Positions 5,294 to 58,898 of a DNA stretch of 64,000 bases are shown here, in pieces. Both the position numbers and the translations under genes were made by a program. The DNA lies in assembly GCF_000482245.1 (NCBI RefSeq), contig NZ_AWNH01000012.1, positions 1 to 64,000 of the forward strand. Reading direction: 5' to 3'. Numbering within the stretch: position 1 is the first letter of the stretch; every line of letters begins with the position of its first letter. The notes beneath the pieces were generated by a model. The model was not told where the DNA came from, did not search any database, and saw only the letters and a program-made list of their open reading frames with translations. The stretch comes from Leptolyngbya sp. Heron Island J (lineage in GTDB: Bacteria; Cyanobacteriota; Cyanobacteriia; Phormidesmidales; Phormidesmidaceae).

Positions 5294-5589
5294 AGATCAG
5301 CGATCCGTTGTGGCATTGGGACAGCATTCTTACCCTACCCATTCGAATGGTGCATGACTTTGTTGAAGAGATGCGTCGCCGTGACACTGCAACTCAAAAC
5401 CGTGCTCAATTTGCGATCGCATCCTTTGCGGCCACCCATGGCAAAGACTGGAAGCCTCAAGATTTCCTCCCCTGGGCAACTGAACAACCTGTAGCCGCTG
5501 ACACCTTAGCTGTTCTCCAAGAATTGGTCGATGCTGGAGAACTTAGTCCACGGGCAGAAGCCGCCGCTAGAGCGAGACTCAAGGCATGA
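5206..5589 (+). CDS. gpT part of the gpGT frameshift product
   Basis: After a -1 slip at 5200-5206 this frame adds 127 residues to 199 residues of gpG, giving a fusion of about 326 residues. There is no ATG or good ribosome binding site that would let it be made alone; the first possible start is a TTG at 5308. The added segment is Trp-rich near its start and helical after that, as expected for a T domain that contacts the tube subunit. The stop overlaps the tape measure ATG by 4 bp. Confidence 0.75.
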   Translation, partial: ASTRVQRARENRARFDEYFWGLYLTLCELKISDPLWHWDSILTLPIRMVHDFVEEMRRRDTATQNRAQFAIASFAATHGKDWKPQDFLPWATEQPVAADTLAVLQELVDAGELSPRAEAAARARLKA

Positions 5590-8500
5590 CTTCCTTAGGC
5601 GAATTAACCCTAGATTTAAAGCTCGACGACAAAGCCTACAACAAAGGTATTGCTGAAGCTCGCAAAAAAGCAGAGGCAATGGACCGAGAGTTTGTATCTG
5701 TGCTTCGGGCAGACACTAAGAACTTTCTGGCAGCCTTTGAGCAAGCGGAACGGGTTAAGAATCGGCTAGACCGAGTTATCACGGCTGAATTCAGAGTAAA
5801 TACTAATCAGATCCGTGGAGCGCTGGAGATTGCCGAGAATGCTCGACGTGAGTTCAAGAAAACTCAAAACACAACATTTACAGCTGACAATAGTCAATTC
5901 CTGGCGGCTGTTAAAGAGATTCGGGCAGCTCGCCGGAACATTGACAAACCCATCAAGGTAAAAATTGGGGTTGAGATCCAAGGATTATTTAACGCGGTCA
6001 ATAATGCGACTAGGGCCATTGCCAGGCTTAGGAAGCCAGTCGCGGTCACATTCACTGCTAACGATCGCGCCCTACGACGCACGCTCAACAGCATTGACAA
6101 AGCAACAGCGCGATTGGGTAAGCCGGTTAGTGCCAACTTCAGGGCCAAGGCGGATCAGTTCTTTAAGGTATTTCGCAATGTTGAGGCTGCCAAAAAACAG
6201 GCATCAACTGACGTTGTTGTTAATTTTAAGCCCAGGAATGAAAGCAGCCTGCTGAGCACTTTAGAGCGAGCAGAAGCCGCTCGCAAACGATTGACTGGCA
6301 CATCTACGGTGGTATTGCAGGCAGACGCCCGAAAGTTTTTTAGGGCTATTAAGCTGACTGAGTCCGCAAAAAAGGACTTCCGATCTGCTGCTACCACCAC
6401 GCTAAATGCCAACGCCACTAAATTCTTTAGGGCTATCAAGGCAGCCAATGAGGCTCGCAAAACACTGTCTAAAACTATCACGGTAGAGATCCGTGCAAAT
6501 GCGACTCAGTTTTTTAGAGCGGTCAAGCGAGCTGAGAAGGCGAAGCAAGATTTTCGATCAGCCGCTACTACCGAATTTAAGCTAAACGCTAATAAGTTTT
6601 TCAAAGGCATTCAGCAGGTTGAACGCGCTCGCAAAACGGTAACCAAGGATGTCACGGTCAATATCCGGGCTAATGCTACTCAATACTTCAGAGCAGCTAA
6701 ACGCATTGAGCAGACCAAGAAAGATATTCGGTCCACGGCTACCACTGAGTTAAGACTGAATGCCAATAAGTTTTTCTCGGGGCTGAAGCGAGCAGAACAG
6801 GCCAAGAAGTCTGTTGTGAGAGATGTCACCGTAAGGCTCAAGGCTGACGCTGGCCAGTATTTCCGCACCACCAAGCGGATAGAATCTGAGAAGAAAAAGT
6901 TTCGTGGGACGGCTACCACAGAATTAAGGGCCAACGCCAGTCAGTTTTTTAGAGCCACCAAAACTGTCAAAGAGCAGAAAAAAGAATTAGGCAAACCAGT
7001 CTCTACAACGCTGCGACTCAATAAAGAGCAGTACCGACAAGATCTTAGGGCAGCCCGCACCGACACCCGAGAGTTTAAGCGTGAATTTGGAACTGGTCAG
7101 TTTCGATTACCACGGGTTAATAGCCGTGAGTTTGAGCGCAGCATTAGGGATGCTGGGAGTCGAGGGCGAAACGTCTTAACTGGGATCTTCCAGGGGATCG
7201 GGCAAGAAATATTTCAGACAATCACCACTGCGCTCACGGCTGCCTTATCTGCACCGATCCGGCTGGGTGGAGGTGCGATCGCAGCATTCTCTGATGTAGA
7301 AGCAGGATTGGTAAACTTTGAGGCCAAGGCCCGTAGCTCGGTTGACAGTGCAGAAGAGTTGGCTAGAGTGTCTGCTAAAGTCGCTGATGAGGCTGAACGT
7401 ATTGGTATTGAAACCAGCAAGACTCCGGCTCAGGTGGCTCAAATTGCTACCCGCATGATCGAGCTGGGGGCAACAGCAAACCAGGCAGCCAACAACGTTG
7501 ATGGAGTTATTACAGCCTTAGAGGCTACCGGCTTTACAGACATCGACAAGACTGCTAAATCATTTCAGTTAGCGGCCAATGTATTTGGCGAGTCCTCAGA
7601 AGAGTTTGCCGATAAACTGGCCTTGCTCACTTCGAGCACAGCCGTCACGACAGCAACCGATGTAGAGCAAGCCTTTGGTAAAGCTGGGGGTGCGTTTCGG
7701 GCAGCTGGCCAGGACTTAGAATCTTTATTGGCATTGTTCTCTGGCTTCAGATCGGCAAGTGGCCCAGAGATTGCGGCAACGGCCACCCGAAACGCTGTAG
7801 CTAAACTGCTGCCCCCAGCTGAACGGGCTACCGAGATTATCGATAAATTGGGCATCACCTTATTCGACTCTGCGGGTGAGGCACTACCCATCCTGGATGT
7901 CTTGGAAGACCTTAAGAGCAGGATTGAGGATTTACCTCAAGAAGAACGCCTGAGATTCTTACAGCGCGTCTTTGACCGTCGTAGCGCCTCTGAGATTGCT
8001 CTTATCCTGGAGCAGCTTGATACTGTTAGATCTACCTACGATGGACTGCGGGAGGACTCCGAGGGCGTTGCTAAGCAGCTGCAAAAAGATCTGAATCAAG
8101 GTATAGGCGCAGCGGTTAACCGTTTGGGCGGAACCATCCAAACACTGGCAGGAGCCTTTGGTGAAGCATTAGGGCCTGGAGTAGAAGCTTTGATTCGGGG
8201 GCTGACTGGGGCATTAAACACGGTAACGGAGGCCGCAGCTGGTGGTTTATTTGATCCCTTGACTGAATCGGTCGAACGGTTTTTTGTTGCAATCAGTGGG
8301 ACAAGTTTATCTAACCTACTGGATCAACTAAGAGCTGGGGAGGGACCAGTAGACGGACTGGGACGCGCATTTGTTCGCGTTGCCGACACAATTCAAGGTG
8401 CTTTGGCTTCTGTGATTAATGGGTTTACTAACTTCATCCAAAACAACCCTGATGCACTAGGTAATTTTGTGGATGGCTTCGCTGATGGATTTAGTCGGAC

Positions 8501-11072
8501 ATCAGAAACGATTGGTCAGATTGCTGGGCAGCTGATACGCATTATTCAGCCTATTGGTGAGATCTCTCAAAATCTATTCTCTGGATTACTTAATCAATCT
8601 AAATCGTTGGTGTCAGTGTTCAGTATTTTTGGGAATGTCGTTACGCCACTGCTAGGGATACTTGAGACCTTGTCTGAGAATTCTGTTCTCGTTGATTTTG
8701 CATTCAAAGGTATCCTTGCCCGAATGATTGCAATTAACGCCGTGAATTTTGCTGGGACTTTAGCGGGCATCGCAACAGGGCTAGTCACTGTTGCTTCAAA
8801 AGGTTTAGCTGCAGTCAAAATATTGACAGGAGCGGCAGCTGCAGGAAAAGGCTTAGCGGCATTCTCGGCGGCGGCTGGCCCAGTCTCTGCCTTAGCAACA
8901 GCATTAGGAGGGCTAGCGATCGCAGCAGGCGTTGTGACTGCCGCTCTTGGCGTATTAGTTGGGGTTTTAGCCGTCATAGAATCCATTCGAATTACGGCAA
9001 TAAATAATGAGATTGAAGCCTTGGCAGGTGCGACAAACACATTAGGCGATGCCAGTATTAATGCGGCTCAGGGGCTGAAAAATGCCATAAAAGAAGCCAA
9101 CGCAGAACGAGCTGAAGGGCTAGATATTGATCAGCAGGCATTGCAGCAGCGCATTAAATTAGCTGAGGAAGAAAAAAAGGCATTGCTGGCACAGCGCCGA
9201 GATCTAGAAGAGCGTTTGTCTAAGGCAGGGAACGGATTATTTGGTAACGCTTTTGGTATTGCCGATGCCCAACGTGGGGCACTTGAGAACCAGATCAAAG
9301 AGACGGAGGCTGCAGAAAAAGCTCTCAACAGTCAGATTGAATCTGCCAATGAACTTCTGCAGGTTGAGCAAGATCGACTACGGAAAACAGACGAGTTGCG
9401 CCAGCAAGACCTAGAGTCATTCCAGGAAAATGAGCAAGCCAAACAGGAGTCTGCTGAAAAACGACTAGAAGCCGTTGAAGCCGACGTTAAAGCGGCCAAT
9501 GCCCGCATCAATCAATCTGAAGCGGAGGCGATTAATGCCGTACTAGAACAGCAGCTTAATGGACTGGATGAGGATACGGCGGCCCAACGCATCCGAGAAA
9601 TTGAGGCTAGAGCTGCTGAAGAACGGGTTGCCCAAAAACGCAAAGAGCTGGATGAGATCATTCAACTCGAAGCTGATGGTGTTTTAGAAGCCGAGAAAGC
9701 CTCTGAGAAAAAAGCTGAAATTGAAGCTCAGCGAACTCAGTTAGTAAGGCAGCAATTAGAAGCTCAGATTCAGGCCCAAAAAGAAGCTGAAGATAGGCGG
9801 CGTGATGAGGCGGTCAGGGCATTTAATGAATTTAATGAAGCCGCTAATCGTGCATTTGAGGAACAGTCCAATGCATTGCAAAAACAGCTAGATGCTCAGA
9901 TTGATGCAGAGAAACAGGCATTTGAAGAGCGCGAAAAGCTGCTAAAAGATGAATTTGAATTTAGGGAGGAACAACTCAAAAAGCAGCAAGAAATTGAAGA
10001 CGAAGCCCTTAAGAAGCGGCTTGATGCTCAGAAGGAAGCCTTAGCCGAGCAACAGCGGCTTGAAAAAGAAGCGAACGACCAAAAACTATCGGCTGTCGAG
10101 CGGTTTGTGGATCGACAGCTGCAATTAGAACAAGCTGCCGACAGTGAAGAACGGAAGCGGCTAGAGGAACAGTTTGCCAATGAAGATGCCCAAGCTAAAC
10201 GCCGTAGCGAACTAGAAGAGAAGGCGTTACGGAGATCTGATCAAATTGCTGGCCGAGAGCGTCGTCGTCGTGGGGACCCAGTTAGCCCCATCGATCAAGC
10301 CCGGCGGGAATTTGACGACGATCAGCAAGCCGAGGCTGATCGGCTGGCAGCTCAACAAGAGGCTGTTCAGCAAAAAGTAGAGGCTCGCCAGGCTGAGGCT
10401 CAAGAACGGCTAGCCCAACAGCGTGAGGAACAAGAGCTGAGGCTGGCTCAACAGCGGGAAGCACTGGAGCAGCAACAGCAGCAGCGCCGAGAGCAATTAG
10501 AAGCCCAAATAGCCAACGATCGCCGCACACTAGAAGATGAGCTGGCTCAACGCCGCATTGAAGCCGAAACAGGACTGCAGCAGGACCGAGCCGCATTCGC
10601 AGCAAACCAACGCCAGCTAGACATCAACGCCGCTAACGAAGTCGCCCGTATACTGTCAGCCGCCAGACCCCAGACACTAACCGCCCGTCGTCATGGTGGT
10701 CCGGTCAGCCCTGGTAGTTCATTCCTCGTAGGAGAAGCCCCACACATTGGCCCTGAGTTGGGCGTATTTAGTGGTAAGCCATTCTTATTCACTCAGCCTA
10801 CAATCCTGCCCAATCCACCCCAGGGACAAATCTACAGTCCAGAACAAACCAAACGAATCATGAGGGCTACCCCGTCGGCTGCAACCACTGGTGGGAATGG
10901 TGAGAGTGCTGCGATCGCAAACGAAATCCGTCAACTTCGCCAGCAGGTGGGCCGCATCCGTGAGGTGATGCCTTTGCTAGATGCCCTGGCCCAGAACATA
11001 GCCAACGATACAGGGCAGATGGAGCGAGATCGTCTGTTTGAAAATGCCCGCTGGCGGCTAGGGGGCATTTAA
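5586..11072 (+). CDS. Tape measure protein with N-terminal tandem repeats
   Basis: The 1828-residue protein sets tail length. Residues 18-510 are about sixteen degenerate 29-residue repeats. Residues about 560-830 resemble the TP901-type tape measure core. Residues about 960-1140 hold long hydrophobic Ala/Gly-rich segments that could insert in a membrane during DNA entry. Residues 1180-1670 are a Glu/Gln/Lys/Arg-rich coiled coil. Near residue 1700 the motif GGPVSPGSSFLVGE matches the usual tape measure C-terminal 'GGPV-LVGE' region. At roughly 0.15 nm per residue this predicts a tail near 270 nm, if the repeats extend as usual. It follows gpT by an ATGA overlap. Confidence 0.9.
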   Translation: MTSLGELTLDLKLDDKAYNKGIAEARKKAEAMDREFVSVLRADTKNFLAAFEQAERVKNRLDRVITAEFRVNTNQIRGALEIAENARREFKKTQNTTFTADNSQFLAAVKEIRAARRNIDKPIKVKIGVEIQGLFNAVNNATRAIARLRKPVAVTFTANDRALRRTLNSIDKATARLGKPVSANFRAKADQFFKVFRNVEAAKKQASTDVVVNFKPRNESSLLSTLERAEAARKRLTGTSTVVLQADARKFFRAIKLTESAKKDFRSAATTTLNANATKFFRAIKAANEARKTLSKTITVEIRANATQFFRAVKRAEKAKQDFRSAATTEFKLNANKFFKGIQQVERARKTVTKDVTVNIRANATQYFRAAKRIEQTKKDIRSTATTELRLNANKFFSGLKRAEQAKKSVVRDVTVRLKADAGQYFRTTKRIESEKKKFRGTATTELRANASQFFRATKTVKEQKKELGKPVSTTLRLNKEQYRQDLRAARTDTREFKREFGTGQFRLPRVNSREFERSIRDAGSRGRNVLTGIFQGIGQEIFQTITTALTAALSAPIRLGGGAIAAFSDVEAGLVNFEAKARSSVDSAEELARVSAKVADEAERIGIETSKTPAQVAQIATRMIELGATANQAANNVDGVITALEATGFTDIDKTAKSFQLAANVFGESSEEFADKLALLTSSTAVTTATDVEQAFGKAGGAFRAAGQDLESLLALFSGFRSASGPEIAATATRNAVAKLLPPAERATEIIDKLGITLFDSAGEALPILDVLEDLKSRIEDLPQEERLRFLQRVFDRRSASEIALILEQLDTVRSTYDGLREDSEGVAKQLQKDLNQGIGAAVNRLGGTIQTLAGAFGEALGPGVEALIRGLTGALNTVTEAAAGGLFDPLTESVERFFVAISGTSLSNLLDQLRAGEGPVDGLGRAFVRVADTIQGALASVINGFTNFIQNNPDALGNFVDGFADGFSRTSETIGQIAGQLIRIIQPIGEISQNLFSGLLNQSKSLVSVFSIFGNVVTPLLGILETLSENSVLVDFAFKGILARMIAINAVNFAGTLAGIATGLVTVASKGLAAVKILTGAAAAGKGLAAFSAAAGPVSALATALGGLAIAAGVVTAALGVLVGVLAVIESIRITAINNEIEALAGATNTLGDASINAAQGLKNAIKEANAERAEGLDIDQQALQQRIKLAEEEKKALLAQRRDLEERLSKAGNGLFGNAFGIADAQRGALENQIKETEAAEKALNSQIESANELLQVEQDRLRKTDELRQQDLESFQENEQAKQESAEKRLEAVEADVKAANARINQSEAEAINAVLEQQLNGLDEDTAAQRIREIEARAAEERVAQKRKELDEIIQLEADGVLEAEKASEKKAEIEAQRTQLVRQQLEAQIQAQKEAEDRRRDEAVRAFNEFNEAANRAFEEQSNALQKQLDAQIDAEKQAFEEREKLLKDEFEFREEQLKKQQEIEDEALKKRLDAQKEALAEQQRLEKEANDQKLSAVERFVDRQLQLEQAADSEERKRLEEQFANEDAQAKRRSELEEKALRRSDQIAGRERRRRGDPVSPIDQARREFDDDQQAEADRLAAQQEAVQQKVEARQAEAQERLAQQREEQELRLAQQREALEQQQQQRREQLEAQIANDRRTLEDELAQRRIEAETGLQQDRAAFAANQRQLDINAANEVARILSAARPQTLTARRHGGPVSPGSSFLVGEAPHIGPELGVFSGKPFLFTQPTILPNPPQGQIYSPEQTKRIMRATPSAATTGGNGESAAIANEIRQLRQQVGRIREVMPLLDALAQNIANDTGQMERDRLFENARWRLGGI
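5637..7122 (+). repeat. About sixteen degenerate 87-bp (29-residue) coding repeats
   Basis: The repeat unit begins with an aromatic pair and helix (FFRAVKR-like) and ends with a strand segment (TTEFKLNANK-like). Units start at residues 18 and 47 and continue in 29-residue steps, with one unit of 30, to about residue 483, followed by one partial unit. The first unit equals the common N-terminal segment of many tape measure proteins, so the array looks like expansion of an ancestral module. Confidence 0.8.
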
Positions 11073-11569
11073 TGGCGTTGTATTTGCAGTTGAAGTTAGG
11101 ATCTCTGACTGTTCGGTTCAAAGGAGCCATTTTTGAAGATGGTGAGCTCCCCAGGGCTGTCGATCCTGAGCTAGCCGGAGAAACCACTTATTCCAATGAG
11201 GGCGGGGTGAGTGTTAGCGGTAGCTCTTTTCACCCCAAACATTTGTGGACTTGGGCCGTGGCAACACGAACCATTTGTGTTACGCAACCGGATTTACCTG
11301 ATCAAGTCCGAGAGCTATGGTCTGAGTACGATCGCTTGCGGAGAGCTAGACTAAATCCCCAGATTGAACTAGAAGATGGGACGCAATACTTCTTTGAAAA
11401 CACTCCGCGCACCCGAGCCCTTGCCACAGATGCCAGTGAAATTGCAACATCCACAGGACGCATAAAGTACTATTCAAAATACTATGTGACTTTTGCTAGG
11501 CCACCTGTTTTTCAACAGGGTGAAGGTTTCACAATTCAGCTAGCTGAGGGGGATATCTTCTCAGCATGA
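11072..11569 (+). CDS. Distal-tail-like protein
   Basis: A 165-residue beta-rich protein whose ATG overlaps the tape measure stop by 1 bp (TAATG). Between the tape measure and the large hub protein is where siphoviruses encode the distal tail (Dit) or an equivalent small baseplate protein. I see no diagnostic motif; the assignment is positional. Confidence 0.5.
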   Translation: MALYLQLKLGSLTVRFKGAIFEDGELPRAVDPELAGETTYSNEGGVSVSGSSFHPKHLWTWAVATRTICVTQPDLPDQVRELWSEYDRLRRARLNPQIELEDGTQYFFENTPRTRALATDASEIATSTGRIKYYSKYYVTFARPPVFQQGEGFTIQLAEGDIFSA

Positions 11570-13716
11570 CTATCGCCAACACTAGCGCCCGCTCCCTTCA
11601 AATCCTCATCGGCCCCGATCTACAAGACTGGTCGGCCCACTACGGCGCGTTCACTCCCGGCTACACCTCCCTGGGCGATGAAAGTGATCCTGGCAAAATC
11701 CCCATCCAAGCCCAGCTAGAGATAAAGCCCGCCTACAACACCCCCGAATCCATCGATCCACTGCTCAACCCCATCCGATGGCGTGTAGGACAGGATGTGC
11801 AAATACGCCCCCGCAACGATGCGAACACCGCGTGGCTGACAGTGCCCTGGACACACCTAAAGATTGTCGCCAACCCCAGCCGACCAGGGCGGGGCAGTCT
11901 GATCCTTGAACTGGGCTGTAAGGTGCTGTGGAGTAATCAGAGCAAGTTCGACGACGATCGCTCCGGGATTATTTACGGCCAAGCAGAGACCGCTGATGCA
12001 GTAGGACGTCGTTTGCTTCTGGCTAGCGATGTCAACCCAGCGAACATCAACCTTGGAACGTGGCCTTATTCAATAGATCGCCCCATCGGCAAACGGGGCC
12101 AGAATAGCTACCTCAATCAACTGGCGGACCTGGCCTATGCCAATGACTGGCGCTATCTCCATCAGAACTCCAGTGGCCAAATCACAGCCACTGAATTGTC
12201 GTTGGCTTCGACGGGAGCGATCGCAACCATAACCCGTGGCCAGAACGATCTCGTCTACGAACCCAACCCTGACCCAGAGCGTCCCGCAGAAATCACCAAG
12301 GTGGCTGGGCTGGGGTATGAGTTGGGGACCATCGAAAATCCGTCGGTGGACATTCAGGATGAGACCATAAATTTCAACGACCTGAGCTCTAACAGCTTTG
12401 GTGAGGGAATCGCTGTACGAACGATCACTACCACAAGTTTCACGACTGGCGCAAACCCCACGAAGACAACGCGGGTGCAGATCTTCCAGGCTGAAGCGTT
12501 GATGTTTCAGAACCCAACTATCCCCTCACAGTTGAGGGAGTTCAGCGATGAAACAGAAACCGAATATTATGAAACAGGCAAACAAGACCCAACCACAGCC
12601 CGTCTCACACAACGCATCCGCACAAAACTTCAGAACGGGCGGACGCTAGACCCCCGTGACGAGATCTTCAACATGCGGGAGATCGAACGGGACCAGGAAG
12701 ACATCACCTATGGCTCGGGCGAACCGATGGAGCGCTACCGGTTCACGGCGAGCCAAGCGGCTATCATCCTCGATGAAAACGCCGAAAACCCATGGGACAG
12801 AATCACGGTTGAAGATTTAGATTTTTCGTGGTCTGAGCACGCCACCGGCAAGTACGACCGAGTTGATAAAGCCAAAGAACCACTGATCAGAATTCGCTCA
12901 AACATCAACCGAGAGTTGGCGAACCCCGATGCTCTCCTTACCAAAAACCGCAACTATAATCGCTCCCGCCCCAACAAACCATTTGACACCCAGTATTTTG
13001 ATGCTGGTATTGATGAAAACCAGTCCGAGTTCACCGGCACTGCCAATTACATGCCCCCCGGTGGCCCATCCGGCTACGAGAAAGAACGACTTTACACCGT
13101 GGCCAATGGGATGGCCTTTAGTGATACCCAGATGCAAACGCTTGCGGCTAAACACCGCGACCTAGCTATTGGCCGAGAGCGGGGGTACGCGATCGAGCTG
13201 GCGATTAATGATGCGCTGTTGATGTCTCCGCCGTTGCCTGAGATTGATGTGGTGGATGTCGACGGGCGCACCTACGCCTACAAAGGAGATGCGCTGACAT
13301 TTGAATTCCTCCAGGCCAGGGCAACGGCGGGGTGTTCTGGTATTTGGATTGGTGGGGGGTATCAGCAGGCGATTAACCTTGCCGGACAGCTACCTGCTAT
13401 TCAGGTTTCTGTTGATATCTTCCGAAGCAACATTGATATTACTGGGCAACTACCTGCCATCAGGGTGGACGTAGCGGTTGTTGCCACGATTGATATAGCT
13501 GGACAGTTGCCTCAGATCCAGGTTGAGGTCGATGTGCAGGAAGACGTTGGCGGCGGCTCCAGCTGGTTTGATATTGATACAAATCAGGACTGGCTTGACA
13601 TCGACACAAATCAAGATTGGCTGGGGATTGGCACAGGCTCAACAAGTTGGGCGGGGATAAGTCAGCAAGAGTGGCTAGCGTTAAATACAAATCAAGACTG
13701 GATAGGAGTCGAGTGA
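11566..13716 (+). CDS. Tail hub / baseplate protein with repetitive C-terminus
   Basis: This 716-residue protein overlaps the previous gene by 4 bp (ATGA) and occupies the hub (Tal or gp27-like) position. Residues 1-560 are an alpha/beta hub-like body; a segment near residues 175-215 resembles hub proteins that load at the tail tip. From about residue 600 there are three copies of a 19-20 residue unit centred on GQLPxIxV, then five or six copies of a 9-residue Trp unit (WxxIxTNQD). These C-terminal repeats may form a ligand-binding tip. Hub role is inferred from position and size. Confidence 0.6.
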   Translation: MTIANTSARSLQILIGPDLQDWSAHYGAFTPGYTSLGDESDPGKIPIQAQLEIKPAYNTPESIDPLLNPIRWRVGQDVQIRPRNDANTAWLTVPWTHLKIVANPSRPGRGSLILELGCKVLWSNQSKFDDDRSGIIYGQAETADAVGRRLLLASDVNPANINLGTWPYSIDRPIGKRGQNSYLNQLADLAYANDWRYLHQNSSGQITATELSLASTGAIATITRGQNDLVYEPNPDPERPAEITKVAGLGYELGTIENPSVDIQDETINFNDLSSNSFGEGIAVRTITTTSFTTGANPTKTTRVQIFQAEALMFQNPTIPSQLREFSDETETEYYETGKQDPTTARLTQRIRTKLQNGRTLDPRDEIFNMREIERDQEDITYGSGEPMERYRFTASQAAIILDENAENPWDRITVEDLDFSWSEHATGKYDRVDKAKEPLIRIRSNINRELANPDALLTKNRNYNRSRPNKPFDTQYFDAGIDENQSEFTGTANYMPPGGPSGYEKERLYTVANGMAFSDTQMQTLAAKHRDLAIGRERGYAIELAINDALLMSPPLPEIDVVDVDGRTYAYKGDALTFEFLQARATAGCSGIWIGGGYQQAINLAGQLPAIQVSVDIFRSNIDITGQLPAIRVDVAVVATIDIAGQLPQIQVEVDVQEDVGGGSSWFDIDTNQDWLDIDTNQDWLGIGTGSTSWAGISQQEWLALNTNQDWIGVE
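13375..13710 (+). repeat. Two sets of short tandem protein repeats in the hub gene
   Basis: Set one: three units of 19-20 residues containing GQLPAIQV, GQLPAIRV and GQLPQIQV. Set two: about six units of 8-10 residues each starting with Trp and often ending NQD. The pattern resembles small repeat modules in adhesins, but no known carbohydrate-binding fold is claimed. Confidence 0.65.
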
Positions 13717-13717
13717 T

Positions 13718-14059
13718 ATGGCGGCAGGTTCAACGGTGGCTGATTTCACGACATTAGAAGGATTGACTGGGGTTAGTGACAATGACTGGTTTCTTGTTAT
13801 TTCCCAAGGCTATGGCCGATATGTTTACGACTCGGCGGGCACTGCGGCGGCCAATGGTGATATCACAAGAGTCCATGGGGCAGGTGGCCGATGGTATGCG
13901 AGCGGACAAATTTTCTCAGACAACATTCCTAGCGGCCCCGCTGAGCTACCTGTTCAGGTAAGCCGAACAGAGCCTGGCTCAACCGGAGGTAAGGAGATTA
14001 ATCGCATTTACTGGAACGGCGGCGGCGGTAATTCAACATGGAATAGCGAATCAATTTGA
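13718..14059 (+). CDS. Tail-tip accessory protein of unknown function
   Basis: A 113-residue protein starting 1 bp after the hub stop codon. It is Gly/Ser/Asn rich, has no membrane segment and reads as a small beta protein with a Gly-rich C-terminus. Its place between the hub and the GH10-like enzyme suggests a baseplate or fibre accessory part. The stop overlaps the next ATG by 4 bp. Confidence 0.55.
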   Translation: MAAGSTVADFTTLEGLTGVSDNDWFLVISQGYGRYVYDSAGTAAANGDITRVHGAGGRWYASGQIFSDNIPSGPAELPVQVSRTEPGSTGGKEINRIYWNGGGGNSTWNSESI

Positions 14060-14808
14060 TGATAATAGGCTCCAAATATATTCACAAAAATCCACTCCTT
14101 CATAAGGATTTCCAGCACATCACACTATGCGCATGGTCAGAGGGTTCGATGCATCGAGGGAGTGCCAAAGAATTACTCAAAGATCTGCAAAGCCAGGGCA
14201 ACATTATCCATGGCCACAACATCCTAGATAAACGCCACAAGCCTAAGGTTTCCACCCTAGAAGAACTTATGGGATGGGTTCGCAATAAAATTGAAGGTAT
14301 TACAGGGGTTCATTCCTGGGATGTGTTGAACGAAGTTATGGGCAATTTCCCTGATGATTGGCTTTTAGCTGTGCTGGAAGAGATGCGAAAACTACAGCCA
14401 GATAGTCTTTTGCTTTGGAATGAATACGCTCTTAAAAACAGGGACTATTGGGATCGACTTATACAATTGGCTGCGATCGCAAAATCCCATGGGCTGTTAG
14501 ACGGAGTGGGCATACAGCGACACATCAATCTTCGAGGAAAGCTCCCATATTCTGAGGTACTCAAGCCAGCTTATTCGTTAGAATGCCACTTAAAAAGCTG
14601 GGTAAACGAAAGACGATTGAGCTATGAAATAAACCGAATTCATGAGCTAGGGTTGCTATGCCATATTTCAGAGGTTTCAATTTGTTGCTTTCCATGGCAG
14701 AGATCTGTCGCTCAGAGGTTTCTAGAAAGGCTGATCGAGATTTCCAGAAATAACGATGCATGGAAGTTAACACTATGGGGTTCCCCTGCAATTAAGGAGA
14801 TTAGCTAA
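14056..14808 (+). CDS. GH10-like glycoside hydrolase in the tail operon
   Basis: The 250-residue product carries the landmarks of glycoside hydrolase family 10 in order. HGHNIL at 52-57 corresponds to the GH10 RGHxLVW strand. WDVLNE at 88-93 places the acid/base at Glu93. The LLLWNEYAL strand is at 118-126 and DGVGIQRH at 149-156. HISEV at 203-207 places the nucleophile at Glu206, and LTLWG at 238-242 is the last strand. GH10 enzymes cleave beta-1,4-xylan-type chains. Usual catalytic domains are about 300 residues, so this is a trimmed barrel. In a tail operon it is probably a depolymerase for sheath or cell-surface polysaccharide. Confidence 0.75.
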   Translation: MMIIGSKYIHKNPLLHKDFQHITLCAWSEGSMHRGSAKELLKDLQSQGNIIHGHNILDKRHKPKVSTLEELMGWVRNKIEGITGVHSWDVLNEVMGNFPDDWLLAVLEEMRKLQPDSLLLWNEYALKNRDYWDRLIQLAAIAKSHGLLDGVGIQRHINLRGKLPYSEVLKPAYSLECHLKSWVNERRLSYEINRIHELGLLCHISEVSICCFPWQRSVAQRFLERLIEISRNNDAWKLTLWGSPAIKEIS

Positions 14809-15491
14809 TGCCTTACTCAACAGCGGCAATCAATGCAGCCATCAATGCAGTTGGGGCGCTTCTAGATGTGGGTAGCGCAGGCAGCCCAACCGCTGAATTC
14901 ACTAACCAAGATGGCTCAATTGTTTATCTTTCGCAACCCTTAGAAAACGATGCATTTGGCGCTGCTGTTGGGGGGCAGATAACCGCCAATATCCCAGCAG
15001 GCAGCATAACTGGATTGGTAGATGGTTCAGCAGGGTATATCCGATTCAAAAACAGGGATGGGGTTGTTGTTGACGCTGAAACTGCTGCAGCTGACGCGGT
15101 GACAGCGTTAATTGCGGTTGGAGCTGGCAACCCTACAGTAGAGATAACTAATAGCGATGCTTCGATTGTTTTTGGCAGCATCAACCTAGATGCCACACCG
15201 TTTGGAGCTGCGGTTAGCGGGGTGGCTACTGCTAATTCACTCCCCAAAACATGGGCAGCCACAGCAACCGGGACCGCAACACACAAACGCTGGAAGGATG
15301 GGGATGGGTTCGTTGTTGGAACTGAAGCCCTGGCCTCTCCCGCTACGATTGAAAGTGGCAGAGCCTATACCTCAAATAGCATTACCTTTTCATCCCCTGG
15401 GATAAACTCACTGCTTACAAATGCAATCTCGGTGACAACAGGGAACTCCTACACCACCAACTCAATCACTCAGACTCAACCCGCAAGCTAA
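14808..15491 (+). CDS. Fibre-like protein with a duplicated domain
   Basis: The 227-residue protein contains two copies of a domain of about 75 residues (about residues 5-85 and 92-165). Each has an AlaAsx-rich helix, a 'GxPTxExTNxDxSIV' strand and an 'FGAAVxGxxTAN' segment. Similar domains are common in phage virion proteins of unknown role encoded near tail fibres. The C-terminal 50 residues are Ser/Thr/Asn rich with two copies of a TxNSIT motif. The start overlaps the GH10-like stop by 1 bp. Confidence 0.6.
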   Translation: MPYSTAAINAAINAVGALLDVGSAGSPTAEFTNQDGSIVYLSQPLENDAFGAAVGGQITANIPAGSITGLVDGSAGYIRFKNRDGVVVDAETAAADAVTALIAVGAGNPTVEITNSDASIVFGSINLDATPFGAAVSGVATANSLPKTWAATATGTATHKRWKDGDGFVVGTEALASPATIESGRAYTSNSITFSSPGINSLLTNAISVTTGNSYTTNSITQTQPAS

Positions 15492-16294
15492 TGGCCGCTA
15501 TTGATAGAGTCCTAGAAGCCACAAAACAACGGCGACAGGCAACCCTCCAATTGATAACTCAGCGATCTGATCTGCCAGTTGAGGAGATTTATGCAGGCGA
15601 TCGCAGGTTCCGCCAGGTTGGTGCTACAGGTGGGTACCTTGGTAGGAATCGGCCAAAGCGCATCAGTCGTAGCATTGGCGAATCCGTCGACTCACTGCTA
15701 TCTGGTGAGAGCGGGGATGTGGATGACCAAGAGCTTAGGCGAATTGTTGATGACCTATCCCAAGCCTTACGGGTGGTGGCCAATCGGCGCGGGATTCTCC
15801 TGTATCAAGGCGATGAAGCCACTAATCCAAACGACGATCCTAACGATGAAGATAACGAGGGCGAGAACAGGGCATATCAGCAGTACGATAATCAGCTAGT
15901 GGCTACTGGCAGTGAGCCCAGAGAGGGGGCGCTCTACCGACATGTCCCAGCAACAGCGACTGAACCCGAGAAATTTGTTCCAGTGGCCATGCATGAGGAC
16001 CAACATGGGCAGATTCAGTCACCAACGGTCAGCCAGACAATATGTGTGATCACTGGTGCAGAATACCGCAGTAAAATCACTAAATTCTCGCTTAAGCTAG
16101 TCGGGGGAGCGACAGTGACAACGCGAGTAGACGACGATACCAATCTAACTGTCGGCACCTCTCCGGACGAAACTACGGTGACTTTTAGTCAAGGCATTGG
16201 GACGGTGATTGATAAAGACCAAAGCCTTGAATTCACTGTCACAGCTACGAATGGTTCTGCGATCGCTTGGTCTGTTGGTTATACAAAAATCTGA
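15491..16294 (+). CDS. Fibre or baseplate-like structural protein
   Basis: A 267-residue protein with a basic helical N-terminal half (residues 1-105), an acidic Asn/Asp/Glu hinge (about 108-130) and a beta-rich C-terminal half (170-267) that looks like a small jelly-roll or Ig-type fold. An N-terminal anchor, hinge and C-terminal beta domain suit an adsorption fibre. No family match is claimed. Confidence 0.5.
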   Translation: MAAIDRVLEATKQRRQATLQLITQRSDLPVEEIYAGDRRFRQVGATGGYLGRNRPKRISRSIGESVDSLLSGESGDVDDQELRRIVDDLSQALRVVANRRGILLYQGDEATNPNDDPNDEDNEGENRAYQQYDNQLVATGSEPREGALYRHVPATATEPEKFVPVAMHEDQHGQIQSPTVSQTICVITGAEYRSKITKFSLKLVGGATVTTRVDDDTNLTVGTSPDETTVTFSQGIGTVIDKDQSLEFTVTATNGSAIAWSVGYTKI

Positions 16295-17211
16295 TGAGCC
16301 GACGCTGGTTTAATTTAATTGAATCTACAAAAGGCCGTCTTGAATTTTTGGCTTACAAAATAGTTGGCTCCACACGCGAAGAATGGTGGATAGGAGGGAT
16401 TGAAGATCCCAGGCTGTTGTATGCAGTCGACTATTCATTTGTCGACACAGGTAGCCGTTTTAGCTTTCACCAGCGTGGCAATAGCGGCAACGCAATTGTG
16501 ATTGTGACAACCGAGCCAATCAACGACGACGACGATCCAAACCTTAACTTTCAGTTTGATATGTCTGGGGCTGTAACGGCTCAGTTTGCTCCAGGTGTTC
16601 TCCCTCCTAATTTAATGGTTGTGGACCGAGGTTGGGGCATGGGCTACCAGAGGGATGTACCAACGGAAAATGAAGGCAATCGAATTCATACGGCCTACCT
16701 TAACTTTTCTGAGGTTAGGCAAGATAGCTTGAATTCTTTGGGCTACGCAATCCCGCTTGGTCTGCCTGGAAGACTATATACACTCCCGTCTTACCCAACA
16801 CCTGAGGCTGACTACAGAACCAATGAAACTGCGTTTGGTCGCGGACTACCTTCAGTAGCATACGATCACGCCTTAATCACTAACTCTGCGACAGGTACAT
16901 TCAACCTGCAGGCTTACTACAGTGCAGCAACCGGGGAGTTGCCATTAGTGGGCGACACCATCCAAACAATTAGAACCTCTGTTGCTAGAGGCGTCGCCCA
17001 TAATGCATACTACAACCACCCGTTTGTTTATGTCGTTGATGGATTTGTCTCAAACTCAAACCCAAACCCACAAAACATTACGCTGAACACATACAGACTG
17101 GAAGTAGGACAGGCAAATGTCACCGGCTCATTGGAGTCAACAGAGGTACTGCAGCCGAAAGGGTTTGATGATCCGGATTTGATTGTTTTTGGGGTACTGA
17201 TCCGGGTTTAA
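16294..17211 (+). CDS. Terminal fibre-like protein of the tail operon
   Basis: The best start is the ATG at 16294, which overlaps the previous stop as TGATG. A TTG at 16267 would add nine residues but lacks support. The 305-residue product is beta-rich and aromatic, with Asn/Pro-rich loops and no membrane segment. It closes the run of adhesin-like genes, so a receptor-binding role is a reasonable guess. Confidence 0.5.
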   Translation: MSRRWFNLIESTKGRLEFLAYKIVGSTREEWWIGGIEDPRLLYAVDYSFVDTGSRFSFHQRGNSGNAIVIVTTEPINDDDDPNLNFQFDMSGAVTAQFAPGVLPPNLMVVDRGWGMGYQRDVPTENEGNRIHTAYLNFSEVRQDSLNSLGYAIPLGLPGRLYTLPSYPTPEADYRTNETAFGRGLPSVAYDHALITNSATGTFNLQAYYSAATGELPLVGDTIQTIRTSVARGVAHNAYYNHPFVYVVDGFVSNSNPNPQNITLNTYRLEVGQANVTGSLESTEVLQPKGFDDPDLIVFGVLIRV

Positions 17212-36089: not shown

Positions 36090-37430
36090 TGCTACGTTGA
36101 CTACTCCCACCGCTAAATCAAAGATTATAGCGGGGGATTCCCAGGCTCACGCTTGAGAGTTTTCTGCTTCGTAGCACTAGCCTTAACAGACTTGCTCTGT
36201 TCGGGTCTTACAGTTGCTCCACAGACTTCGACCGCTAGACCAGCGGCAAGAATATTTATCGCAGCATTTATATCTCTATCATGGCTATGGCCACACTCAG
36301 GACAAACCCAATCTCTAACATTAAGCAGCATTTTGGGGCTGATATGCCCGCAATTACTGCAACGTTTAGAGCTTGGAAACCATCGGTCAATCTTGACCAC
36401 AGTCCGACCATACCAATCAGCTTTATACTCAAGCTGCCTAACCAGTTCACCCCAACTTGCATCACTGATAGAGAGTGCAAGTTTGTGGTTTTTCTTCATG
36501 TTCTTCACTGCCAAATCTTCGACTGCAATTACTTGGTTTTCGCGTATCAGTCGAGTAGTCAGCTTATGAAGAAAATCTCTGCGAGTGTCAGCTATTTCAG
36601 CCTGGATTCTCGCTACTTTCAACCGTGCTTTATGCCGATTGTTAGAGCCCTTTTGCTTCTTAGCGAGACGCTTTTGAGCCAATGCAAGCCGCTTGTGCTT
36701 TTTGCGAAACGTCTTAGGATTAGCAACTTTCCCGCCATTGCTGTCAGCAATCAGGCTTGTTACACCCAAATCAACCCCGATTTTATTAGGAGACTTAGGC
36801 AATGTCTCAATACCCACGTCCACCAACAGGCTTACAAACCAACGACCAGACGGATCAAGCTTGACCGTCACAGTCGAAGGTTTAGCACCTTCAGGCAATG
36901 GCCTAGACCATCGAATCGGCAATGGTTCGGAACATTTAGCCAAGTAAATCTGATTGTCTCTGAACTTGAACGCCGACTTAGTGAACTCAGCACTTCCACC
37001 ATTATGCTTCTTTTTGAAGTTGGGGTATTTCGCCCGACCTGCAAAGAAGTTGGTGAAAGCCTTTTGAAGGTGCCTGAGACATTGTTGCAAGGGGACACAG
37101 CTAACCTCATTCAAGAAGTTCAGCGAGTCCTCTTTTTTCCAGAGCGTAAGCATAGCGGACGTTTCTTTGTACCCAACCCGTTTTTGATGCTTATACCAAG
37201 CGTCAGACCGTGCAGCCAATGCGCGGTTGTAAACGAGTCGAGCGCAACCCATAGTTCTTCTCAGCAAGTTTTCTTGCTCAGGAGTTGGATAAAAACGATA
37301 TCGAAATGCTTTTTGGCTCATAGTCACATTATAGTGTTTAGAATGTGAAAGTGTGATCTGCCACGCTCTTTTGTTTTGTGAGGGGTGATTTATTCCTCTC
37401 GTCGCTAAGCTTCGCTATAGCGAGAGTCTC
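36090..37430 (-). mobile_element. IS200/IS605-type element with tnpB only
   Basis: One tnpB gene without a TnpA transposase. On the left (3') side a hairpin CCCACCGCTA / TAGCGGGGG (36106-36136) overlaps the tnpB stop, the usual right end and guide-RNA scaffold. On the right a palindrome CTCTCG...CGAGAG (37396-37426) could be the left end. Exact boundaries are uncertain because these elements make no target duplication. Confidence 0.65.
36125..37327 (-). CDS. tnpB: TnpB RNA-guided nuclease (OrfB of IS200/IS605)
   Basis: The 400-residue protein has the full TnpB layout. An N-terminal helical and basic region is followed by RuvC motifs GVDLGV (Asp186), VEDLAV (Glu270) and DRDINAA (Asp352), and a zinc finger with Cys323, Cys326, Cys342 and Cys345. 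All catalytic residues are present, so the enzyme is probably active. TnpB uses an RNA from the element's 3' end to cut DNA next to a short motif. Movement would need TnpA supplied elsewhere. Confidence 0.93.
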   Translation of the reverse strand: MTMSQKAFRYRFYPTPEQENLLRRTMGCARLVYNRALAARSDAWYKHQKRVGYKETSAMLTLWKKEDSLNFLNEVSCVPLQQCLRHLQKAFTNFFAGRAKYPNFKKKHNGGSAEFTKSAFKFRDNQIYLAKCSEPLPIRWSRPLPEGAKPSTVTVKLDPSGRWFVSLLVDVGIETLPKSPNKIGVDLGVTSLIADSNGGKVANPKTFRKKHKRLALAQKRLAKKQKGSNNRHKARLKVARIQAEIADTRRDFLHKLTTRLIRENQVIAVEDLAVKNMKKNHKLALSISDASWGELVRQLEYKADWYGRTVVKIDRWFPSSKRCSNCGHISPKMLLNVRDWVCPECGHSHDRDINAAINILAAGLAVEVCGATVRPEQSKSVKASATKQKTLKREPGNPPL

Positions 37431-52686: not shown

Positions 52687-53367
52687 TTACTCAGCCTCTG
52701 ACAGTCGTTTTATCAGGTCGGCTTTCTTAAGCTTGGAGTAGCCTGTTATCCCTCGTTTCTTCGCCCTTTTCTTTAGCTCTGTGGCAGTGAATGTATCAAG
52801 AAGTATAGGATCAGTGATCACCTCAGGTAGAGGTTCGGGCTCTAAGTAAAAAACCTTTCTCAGTTCCTTGAGCTTCCCTTTTGTAATTCTGCATTTTAAT
52901 TTGGTAATTGGCTCCAGAGTCTTCCAGTACTTACGTGGAGCGCTGTCAATACGTCCAGCAGTTGTAGCTACACTAACTCCCTTAAGTAATGTCCCAGGCT
53001 GCTTAATCAGATAGTCGAGGGCAGCCGCTATCTGTTTGTGTGTAGCCTTAGATAGGTTAATACGAGGTACTGTGTCATGGGCTAGCACAGAGGATACCAA
53101 GGCAGTATCAGCAGAGTCATCAGCAATGATGCACCAGGCTTTCTCAAGTCCAGCTTCTGCGATCGCTTCGTAGACAAATGCATTCGCTACGACTTCATAC
53201 TGGTCAACTCCAACCTCTTTAACAATGAGAGGTATCCAGTTTCGCTGACTTACTCGAAGCAAACTACTAGCCTCATGAATTAAAAACTCATGAGCTTCTG
53301 TCAACGGACCTGGCTCAATTTCGTCAAATGGCAAACACATAAGATTGCCAATATCTCTTATCCCCAT
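52687..53367 (-). CDS. parB: ParB-like centromere-binding protein with SAP/Rho-N tail
   Basis: The 226-residue protein overlaps parA by 10 bp. Residues about 40-85 (NWIPLIVKEVGVDQYEVV and the segments after it) resemble the N-terminal ParB/Srx fold. The centre is helical. Residues 190-226 (TATELKKRAKKRGITGYSK then KKADLIKRL) look like a SAP or Rho N-terminal nucleic-acid-binding motif. Together with ParA it would segregate the replicon. No CTP-binding motif is confirmed. Confidence 0.6.
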   Translation of the reverse strand: MGIRDIGNLMCLPFDEIEPGPLTEAHEFLIHEASSLLRVSQRNWIPLIVKEVGVDQYEVVANAFVYEAIAEAGLEKAWCIIADDSADTALVSSVLAHDTVPRINLSKATHKQIAAALDYLIKQPGTLLKGVSVATTAGRIDSAPRKYWKTLEPITKLKCRITKGKLKELRKVFYLEPEPLPEVITDPILLDTFTATELKKRAKKRGITGYSKLKKADLIKRLSEAE

Positions 53368-54698
53368 AACAAATAATCCTTAATGAATTTTCTATATTGC
53401 TGAAATGCGACTTTTGAGCAAAATGCAGCTGGTGTGTGGAGAAAATCGGCCTTAGCAATGTTCGCCATATAGCGAATTTTCACCATTTCAAAATCTCGAC
53501 GCCCCTTAGTCCATTTAGGGTAAAAATATGGTCTCAAATTAAATCCTTTTTTCTTCCCATCCTTGATGACCTGTTCAATAGCCTTATGCATAATTTCAGA
53601 CAGGCTAGGTGAAATTTTAGATGGATGGCTATTAAAAAGTACTACTAAAGGTATAGGCCCAGCATCCCCAAAGCTCCTTCGTCGCCCCTTCTGTATTTCT
53701 GGTAATAAATCAGTGACTGCCATGCCTGCATTTTGCAGGGAATGGAGATTATCATGGCGCGCTGGCATCAGGACGACATCTGCCGCATAAACAGCCTGCT
53801 GAGAAAAAACTCGCCAGTTTGGAGGTACGTCGATCAGTATGTAGTCGTACTTAGTCTGTTTTACTGATTCCAGAGTCTTTAATAGCGAATGATCTTTAAC
53901 ATACTGCCTTAATCCAACTTCATCGGCTTCAGAAACCATTTTCGCGTCGGAAAGGATCAGGTCAAAGCCAACTTTTTCCCCACTTCGAAATTTATACTCA
54001 TAGGATGTAATGCTTTCACAAATATCAGCATTCTTTTCTGTTAACATTCGCCACATCTGCCCTTGAGATGGAGGCAGACCCAAGGCATCGCCTAAATCCT
54101 GCTGGTTAGGATCAAAGTCAATAGCAAGCACACGCTTACCAAGAACCGTTAAAGCTGCAGCCAAATTGATGGTAGTAGTGGTTTTGCCAACACCACCTTT
54201 ATTGTTGTAGATCGCTATCGTTAAACCCCTGGGGACGATATTCATCCGCTCACGAAACTTTCTAGCAATTCCGTCTGGGTCTGAGCACTCCAAGCACGGA
54301 GTCACTGGGTATATAACCTTTCCGTGTTTTCGGAATAGCTGAGCATGCAGCGAGTTTGTAATGATACCCCATTGCACCGACTCGGATTTATCGCCCAAGA
54401 GGTAGCGCTTCAACTGATCTACAACTTTCACATATTCCTTTTGACCTTCAGCCAAATCTTTGTCTTGCCCCTTGGTTTCGACATATAGATAAGGATCACG
54501 TCTTGTGTCAATAAACCTGCCATTTTCTGTGCTTTTGCCTGCTGCATGGTCAACCGGACCCGCTCCCGTAGGGAACTGAAAGAATATGTCGTCCTTAGTG
54601 AAACCTAAAGCCTGAATAAAAGCAGGGGTAAATTCGCGCTCAACAAATGCTTCTTCTGCCCCATCAGGCAATTGATCGATAATTTCCTTTAAACTCAT
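53358..54698 (-). CDS. parA: ParA partition ATPase with N-terminal PD-(D/E)XK-like domain
   Basis: In the 446-residue protein, residues about 1-150 resemble the type I restriction R-subunit N-terminal domain (HSDR_N). Asp68 in RRDPY is followed by YVETKG, giving Glu74-x-Lys76, and an LFR..G segment. Residues 160-446 are a ParA ATPase: NNKGGVGKTTTT with signature Lys167 and Lys172, a Walker A' LAIDFDPNQQDL and a Walker B ILIDVPP. ParA proteins position and separate replicons on the nucleoid. The nuclease-like domain is not part of usual ParA and may bind DNA or act as a guard. Confidence 0.8.
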   Translation of the reverse strand: MSLKEIIDQLPDGAEEAFVEREFTPAFIQALGFTKDDIFFQFPTGAGPVDHAAGKSTENGRFIDTRRDPYLYVETKGQDKDLAEGQKEYVKVVDQLKRYLLGDKSESVQWGIITNSLHAQLFRKHGKVIYPVTPCLECSDPDGIARKFRERMNIVPRGLTIAIYNNKGGVGKTTTTINLAAALTVLGKRVLAIDFDPNQQDLGDALGLPPSQGQMWRMLTEKNADICESITSYEYKFRSGEKVGFDLILSDAKMVSEADEVGLRQYVKDHSLLKTLESVKQTKYDYILIDVPPNWRVFSQQAVYAADVVLMPARHDNLHSLQNAGMAVTDLLPEIQKGRRRSFGDAGPIPLVVLFNSHPSKISPSLSEIMHKAIEQVIKDGKKKGFNLRPYFYPKWTKGRRDFEMVKIRYMANIAKADFLHTPAAFCSKVAFQQYRKFIKDYLLWG

Positions 54699-57768: not shown

Positions 57769-58898
57769 GAGAAACCTGTATTCGCCATCAACCAAAACAA
57801 ATAATGGCAGTCATTAGGCAGGATTATTACGACATAACCGCTGATGCCGTAGCTTCAGCATTGATCAATTTTTTTGAATTTCGTGCCAACGGCGTTATCT
57901 CAAGCAACTCCAACCAAGCCAATTCGGAAGATATACCTCTAGGGGAAATATCAATAAAAGAGTTTCAAGAGGCTTTGCTAGGGCTTTCTACGGACAAGCA
58001 AATTAGAAAGCGACTAGATTATCTCATACAGCAAAAAATCGTCTCTAGAGCAAAAAAAACAGGACGTGTAACTGAATTTGTATTTCATATAGGAAACACG
58101 CAGAGCGCCATCGACCACCCCGGTCAAATGACCGCACCATACCCCGGTCATTTGACCAAAGAACCCCGGTCAAATGACCAAAGAACCCCGGTCAAACAAC
58201 CGCACCAACCCCGGTCAAATGACCGTTCATCTATATATAAGAATAATTTAAAAGAAAAAGAAGAAAGAAAGAAGGATCCTTCCCCTTTTGAAAAGCCTGC
58301 TACGCAGCCCGAGGAAATCAATTCTTCTGTTCAGATTAATGAACAAAATTCTGGGCAAACGGGATCGGCTTCGCTTGATTTGGGTCAGGCTAAATCGGTA
58401 GGCAAAGATCAAGGGGGTAATGTTCCGCCGCCGCCAAAAGTTGGCGTTGTTACGTACAAGCAGTCTCCCGAGTCGATAGACCTTTCTGAGCTGTGGGAGG
58501 TTGCAGAGTACGAGGCCAAAGCCAAGGCTAGAGCTTTAGCTCCTGGCCACAGACATCCAGCTTTGGTCGCTCATGGGTTGGGAGATATCTGGGTAGGGCC
58601 AAACGTAAGCGATTTTGATGCAGGATTGTTGGCATTAATTGCTAAAAACAAAAAAACTGGCAATCATCCCGACAATCGGGCCGCTTGCGTGACGTTTATC
58701 ACTAGGGCGATCAGGGATGCTGACTGGGCAAAGCTTGAGGCTCTTTGGCTGGATGTCCAACAGAAAACGCGACAACAGCCAGCTTTGACCGTCATTGATG
58801 CGCCTTTACCAAAGAAAGAAACAGGGAAATATTCACCTCCGCCTGAAAAAAATTGGGCAAAGAACGTACTAGGAGCAAGATATCGAAATGCAGGCTAA
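57765..58898 (+). CDS. Replication initiator, lambda-O-like in layout
   Basis: The 377-residue protein has an N-terminal DNA-binding-like region (about 20-110) with winged-helix character and a long polar linker (about 117-235). The C-terminal domain (235-370) is suited to helicase loading. The linker is encoded by five iterons and an AT-rich tract. The gene runs directly into dnaB. This mirrors lambda O followed by P or DnaB, where the origin lies inside the initiator gene. Start is a GTG overlapping the previous stop. Confidence 0.7.
   Translation: MRETCIRHQPKQIMAVIRQDYYDITADAVASALINFFEFRANGVISSNSNQANSEDIPLGEISIKEFQEALLGLSTDKQIRKRLDYLIQQKIVSRAKKTGRVTEFVFHIGNTQSAIDHPGQMTAPYPGHLTKEPRSNDQRTPVKQPHQPRSNDRSSIYKNNLKEKEERKKDPSPFEKPATQPEEINSSVQINEQNSGQTGSASLDLGQAKSVGKDQGGNVPPPPKVGVVTYKQSPESIDLSELWEVAEYEAKAKARALAPGHRHPALVAHGLGDIWVGPNVSDFDAGLLALIAKNKKTGNHPDNRAACVTFITRAIRDADWAKLEALWLDVQQKTRQQPALTVIDAPLPKKETGKYSPPPEKNWAKNVLGARYRNAG
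58118..58275 (+). other. Putative replication origin: five iterons plus AT-rich tract
   Basis: The unit CCCCGGTCAAATGACC occurs at 58118, 58142 (reversed centre), 58164, 58186 (imperfect) and 58209, at 22-24 bp spacing. Its core GGTCAAATGACC is nearly palindromic. It is followed at 58225-58275 by an AT/purine-rich unwinding tract. Confidence 0.75.

Follow-up and report, generated by a model that had tools for sequence, protein, structure and literature searches.

The window, which makes up the first 64 kb of a contig of 208 kb from Leptolyngbya sp. Heron Island J, shows a siphovirus-like tail operon containing a gene of the glycoside hydrolase GH10 type, with conserved structural genes on either side. 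All genes of this operon are on the forward strand. Upstream of the GH10-type gene are a gene encoding a tape measure protein of 1828 aa (5586-11072; Pfam PhageMin_Tail, E 2.1e-23; PHROG families down to E 5.7e-25), which is 86% identical in G004, a genome of the same genus; a gene encoding a small tail protein (11072-11569), which shares 67% identity with its positional counterpart in G004; a gene encoding a hub-like tail protein of 716 aa (11566-13716), whose role is assigned from its position and which is 62-63% identical to the same-position genes of two G004 operons; and a 113-aa ORF (13718-14059), which has no Pfam or PHROG match and no relative among the 5130 ORFs of the fetched loci. 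The GH10-type ORF (14059-14808) is followed by a 227-aa structural gene (14808-15491), 41-44% identical to the post-hub gene of both G004 operons, a 267-aa structural gene (15491-16294), whose N-terminal 165 residues are 47% identical to the gene that immediately precedes the GH10 relative in G004, and a 314-aa ORF (16267-17211), placed last in the operon by position and without a family match. Among 63 genomes of the family, the 227-aa gene has strong relatives in G000 and G004 only, and in IMG/VR its close relatives are confined to these tail elements. An earlier note on this DNA, made from the sequence alone, had assigned the GH10-like gene to the tail operon of a phage, with a hub gene on one side and fibre genes on the other. 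The operon setting is borne out by the tape measure, hub-like and conserved structural genes; the position also stands approximately, after the hub-like gene and the 113-aa ORF and before structural genes conserved in G004, for which 'fibre' is a putative label. The hub-like protein ends in DTNQDWL-type repeats; in the G004 hubs, the C-terminal region is different and long.

An integrase gene is located at contig position 65835-66998, followed by ordinary chromosomal genes. Since the window opens at the contig start and the integrase and chromosomal genes lie just past its other end, it corresponds to most of a prophage, whose head genes would lie beyond the start of the contig. A related element in G004 (IMG/VR UViG_2509601039_000003) carries a terminase gene and an integrase gene. 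Elsewhere, the window contains a gene encoding a DnaB helicase into which an intein is inserted, with a Hint domain and a LAGLIDADG endonuclease (58888-61263, +), a gene encoding a ParA-type ATPase whose N-terminal stretch has a weak resemblance to a type I restriction subunit (53358-54698, -; E 0.038), and after it a ParB-like gene (52687-53367, -), a similar pair being found beside a tail gene in L048. It also shows a gene whose sequence indicates a TnpB-like transposon protein with zinc-finger motifs at the C-terminus (36125-37327, -), 31% identical to a gene of the G004 element, and one encoding an Xre-type HTH fused to an IrrE/M78 peptidase, a domain combination seen in phage regulators (48470-49702, +).

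The GH10-type ORF can start with an ATG at 14059 or with a TTG at 14056; the ATG overlaps the TGA that ends the 113-aa ORF upstream (ATGA). The ATG is the likelier start, and gives a protein of 249 aa (MIIGSKYIHK...AIKEIS). By codon usage, the ORF scores 0.033 in its own frame and between -0.28 and -0.41 in the remaining five frames; 0.033 is the lowest score within the operon, and its GC is 0.432 versus 0.47-0.54 in the adjoining operon genes. The low GC and low codon score suggest a separate origin. Sequence inspection of the protein showed no obvious signal peptide for export.

The protein matches Pfam PF00331 with 44.5 bits (E 1.5e-11), above the family cut-off of 22.1, and in a six-frame search of its own 8.06-Mb genome the gene scores 38.1 bits and is the sole GH10. 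Its closest PDB sequence matches are GH10 xylanases (6wqw, E 2.2e-6). Two GH10 HMMs score it at 21.0 and 21.7 bits, versus at most 6.8 and 0.9 for 1000 shuffles, and no other ORF of the window is above 1.7 bits with them. Global hhalign against 33 cyanobacterial GH10s aligned residues 1-249 (E 4.2e-14), with all eight strand landmarks in order: IIGSKY, FQHITL, GHNIL and HSWDVLNE for beta1-beta4, and LLLWNEY, DGVGIQRH, LCHISEVSI and LTLWG for beta5-beta8, the labels being taken from the known GH10 order rather than a structure and the beta1-beta2 part being the least certain. Identity to GH10 homologs is about 20-22%; the profile comparisons make the protein almost certainly homologous to GH10. 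The earlier note had reached the same family and the same order of landmarks for the ORF 14056-14808.

Both catalytic Glu proposed in that note are found in all 29 aligned homologs; its count of 250 residues and its numbering, Glu93 and Glu206, become 249 aa, E92 and E205 when the protein is read from the ATG. E92, in the NE motif after beta4 (14332-14334), is the candidate acid/base, and E205, at the end of beta7 (14671-14673), the candidate nucleophile. The alignment also shows N91, directly before E92; H53 (14215-14217), equivalent to the conserved His of GHTLVWH (His in 29/29 homologs); Q153 and H155 (14515-14523), equivalent to the beta6 Gln (29/29) and His (28/29); and W240 (14776-14778), equivalent to the beta8 Trp (28/29). 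Asp stands in place of the GHTLVW Trp, and the stretch that would carry the ENxMK Lys lacks this residue and is about 8 residues shorter than its counterpart in the homologs. Besides the two Glu, we take the GH10 -1/-2 subsite residues to be, in Cex numbering, Lys47, His80, Trp84, Asn126, Gln203, His205 and Trp273; the equivalents of Trp84 and Lys47 are lost and the other five are kept. Seven of nine canonical catalytic and -1-subsite positions, picked from general knowledge of GH10, are therefore retained, versus 10 of 32 other near-invariant columns (Fisher p 0.017), and the chance of keeping seven of nine is 6e-4 at 22% identity to the majority. We read this biased retention as pointing to selection for catalysis, short of proof, and the loss of subsite residues suggests that plain xylan is not the substrate.

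The Pfam match stops at profile position 276 of 311, so that the last ~35 positions are missing, and the ORF ends nine residues past W240. The alpha8 region (..FD..QPKPAY.AL in homologs) and some loops are missing from the sequence, in agreement with the shortened barrel of the earlier note. The next gene begins at 14808 and is conserved in the relatives, and no remnant of alpha8 was found in the other reading frames. A frameshifted gene with its C-terminus intact elsewhere was rejected on this ground. An AlphaFold2 model from the single sequence has a pLDDT of 52 and is unusable; by homology, the predicted fold of the protein is a barrel of the (beta/alpha)8 type that closes although the usual alpha8 is missing.

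As for tail-associated GH10s in other cyanobacterial phages, which the earlier note had proposed to look for, GH10 relatives were found in tail operons of G004. This genome holds two related tail operons, each ending in a highly diverged GH10 relative, of 292 aa (L047:4973-5851) and 343 aa (L046:12389-13420, minus strand), so that each of the three related tail operons that were found has a GH10 relative. Pfam gives no match for either G004 protein. Both keep the motifs NEL, W-I-G-[DE]-Y and A-L-E in GH10 order, the Glu of ALE being the putative nucleophile, and both keep alpha8-type sequence (GSWDAGGQPK and GWFDKDHQMK). A profile of the two sequences, run against 388 genomes of the class, found besides itself three genes only, all clear GH10s of one cyanobacterial subfamily. 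The HMM of this subfamily scores all three tail proteins above their shuffles, the G004 relatives at 19.6 and 10.6 bits versus at most 4.0 and 3.7 for 1000 shuffles. With the broad GH10 HMM, the weaker relative gives 2.5 bits, below its shuffles at 3.2, and its assignment to GH10 is less secure.

The gene order is not the same in the three operons: the window gene lies before the 227- and 267-aa genes and the G004 GH10s lie after their equivalents. Between the window and G004, identity is 86% for the tape measure, 99% for an 80-aa gene, 63% for the hub and 41-47% for the next two genes, and the GH10 genes have no BLAST-significant match to each other. Identity falling in this way toward the tail tip is the pattern of a putative host-contact module. 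Single-sequence searches with the window protein found nothing in phage records, IMG/VR or GTDB genomes, nor did a scan with it and the two G004 proteins together. Two further cyanobacterial loci with a related hub show other enzyme genes downstream of the tail genes, one encoding a sulfotransferase (L055:6529-7422, +) and one a C39-like peptidase (L053:5739-6425, -), and the distal tail slot may hold various enzymes across such loci.

The best phmmer matches of the window protein and of one G004 relative belong to the same cyanobacterial GH10 subfamily (L078-L085). A tree of 46 GH10s leaves descent from this subfamily without support: the window protein has no supported neighbour, its end branch is 8.8 and long-branch warnings were given. 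With MAFFT, a G004 protein was misaligned, and so was the N-terminal part of the window protein. As for GH10s of the host lineage, genome G003, of the same genus, contains three. Two of them lie in polysaccharide clusters of the Wza/Wzx/Wzy/glycosyltransferase kind, where the genes are Poly_export, Wzx, Wzy_C-like or glycosyltransferase ones. A GT4 or Wzx gene flanks GH10 in 6 of 30 cyanobacterial loci of about 4 kb, a figure that has no background rate, and many host GH10s lie outside polysaccharide clusters; the contexts with polysaccharide genes are suggestive of host exopolysaccharide as a sensible target. In four genomes (L068-L070, L073) the subfamily GH10 adjoins a conserved gene of ~168 aa, the tested copy of which has no Pfam match. 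Xylose is listed among the monosaccharides measured in Leptolyngbya exopolysaccharide (PMC10142279).

A GH10 scan of 2.9 million IMG/VR contigs gave seven loci, three of them with phage genes alongside. In L158, a gene encoding a protein with tail collar and GDSL-esterase regions is upstream of GH10 and a phage DNA polymerase gene is downstream; in L159 the GH10 gene adjoins tail protein genes and in L163 it adjoins a portal gene. L160, L161, L162 and L164 were not retained as phage GH10s, as the part read shows no tail or head gene beside GH10, and they may be bacterial flanks. In L158 (4366-6975, +), the tail gene is GDSL-esterase/arabinofuranosidase-like, and the GH10 directly after it is full-length with a signal-like N-terminus. 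In the literature searched, GH10 is included among the auxiliary genes of soil viruses (PMC6460857) and no description of GH10 in a phage tail operon was found: phage GH10 as such is already known, and a diverged, minimal GH10 in a recurrent tail slot was not found there.

On these data, the best-supported function is that of a putative depolymerase for a cyanobacterial glycan, because of the tail position, the retained active site, the divergence pattern and some of the host GH10 contexts. That the phage uses an active glycan hydrolase on the host surface appears reasonably probable from the sequence evidence. The gene, located in the distal tail module of this cyanobacterial prophage, would encode a glycoside hydrolase of the GH10 family that is minimal and evolves fast. 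The protein, part of the virion or travelling with it, would use the retaining two-Glu mechanism to cleave a beta-linked polysaccharide of the host surface, either exopolysaccharide or sheath, and so help the phage to reach the cell. The gene may have been taken from a cyanobacterial GH10 and have diverged along with the host glycan. The wider proposal, that a lineage of cyanobacterial temperate phages uses the GH10 scaffold as a variable host-contact enzyme, one version of which lacks alpha8, is among the smallest working barrels and is aimed at exopolysaccharide, is tentative, and we hold it to be possible rather than probable.

The loss of alpha8, of the ENxMK Lys and of the GHTLVW Trp could instead have left a binding-only or inactive derivative. 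A GH10-derived tail protein, catalytically dead, that recognises the host polysaccharide without cutting it would account for the missing alpha8, the missing subsite Lys and Trp and the strong divergence; we consider it unlikely, given that E92, E205, N91, H53, Q153, H155 and W240 are kept while the other near-invariant columns are mostly lost, and that NEL is present in both G004 relatives too. Decay is another reading: a non-functional GH10 fragment left by recombination would lack its C-terminus and could have the lowest coding score of the operon, as this gene does, and yet the ORF is intact with coupled start and stop, its frame is clearly coding, the active-site residues are selectively kept and the missing end has no frameshifted remnant, which makes this reading very improbable.

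The gene may also be cargo, as its variable place in the operon allows: an auxiliary enzyme that the infected cell or lysogen would produce and that would serve metabolism or release by acting on the exopolysaccharide of that cell, without forming part of the virion. Its GC, below that of its operon neighbours, fits this reading, as does the precedent of GH10 among soil-virus auxiliary genes. Nevertheless, the start of the gene overlaps the stop of a tail-operon gene, a GH10 relative occurs in each of the three related operons and the protein has no obvious signal for export, and we regard cargo as improbable. If the depolymerase reading is true, it identifies both an enzyme family and a gene slot, open to expression and testing, for a process of which little is known, the passage of phages through the thick glycans of filamentous cyanobacteria. 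The enzyme might also serve as a reagent for the sheath polysaccharide of cyanobacteria, and it would be a case of phages turning a textbook family of plant-polymer enzymes to host contact; for enzymologists, a GH10 barrel that lacks alpha8 would be of interest.

Well-known phage depolymerases are beta-helical tailspikes, unlike the GH10 type. Phage depolymerases are usually encoded among the structural genes (PMC7916357), and the window locus shares with tail-associated ones a hydrolase gene in the structural/tail region, distal and fast-diverging (PMC7916357). With the GH10 family of endo-beta-1,4-xylanases (PF00331), the window protein has in common the profile match over its whole length, the order of strand motifs, the catalytic Glu pair and the His, Asn, Gln, His and Trp of the -1 subsite, and it differs in having 249 aa instead of about 310, with alpha8 and several loops missing. 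It shares the HIxEVSI nucleophile strand with the cyanobacterial subfamily of Leptolyngbya, Phormidesmis, Prochloron and Spirulina, whose members are full-length (about 310-345 aa) and, where inspected, show no adjoining phage genes. The IMG/VR phage GH10s L158, L159 and L163 lie beside tail or portal genes like the window gene, but they are canonical (196-312 bits) and belong to unrelated phages.
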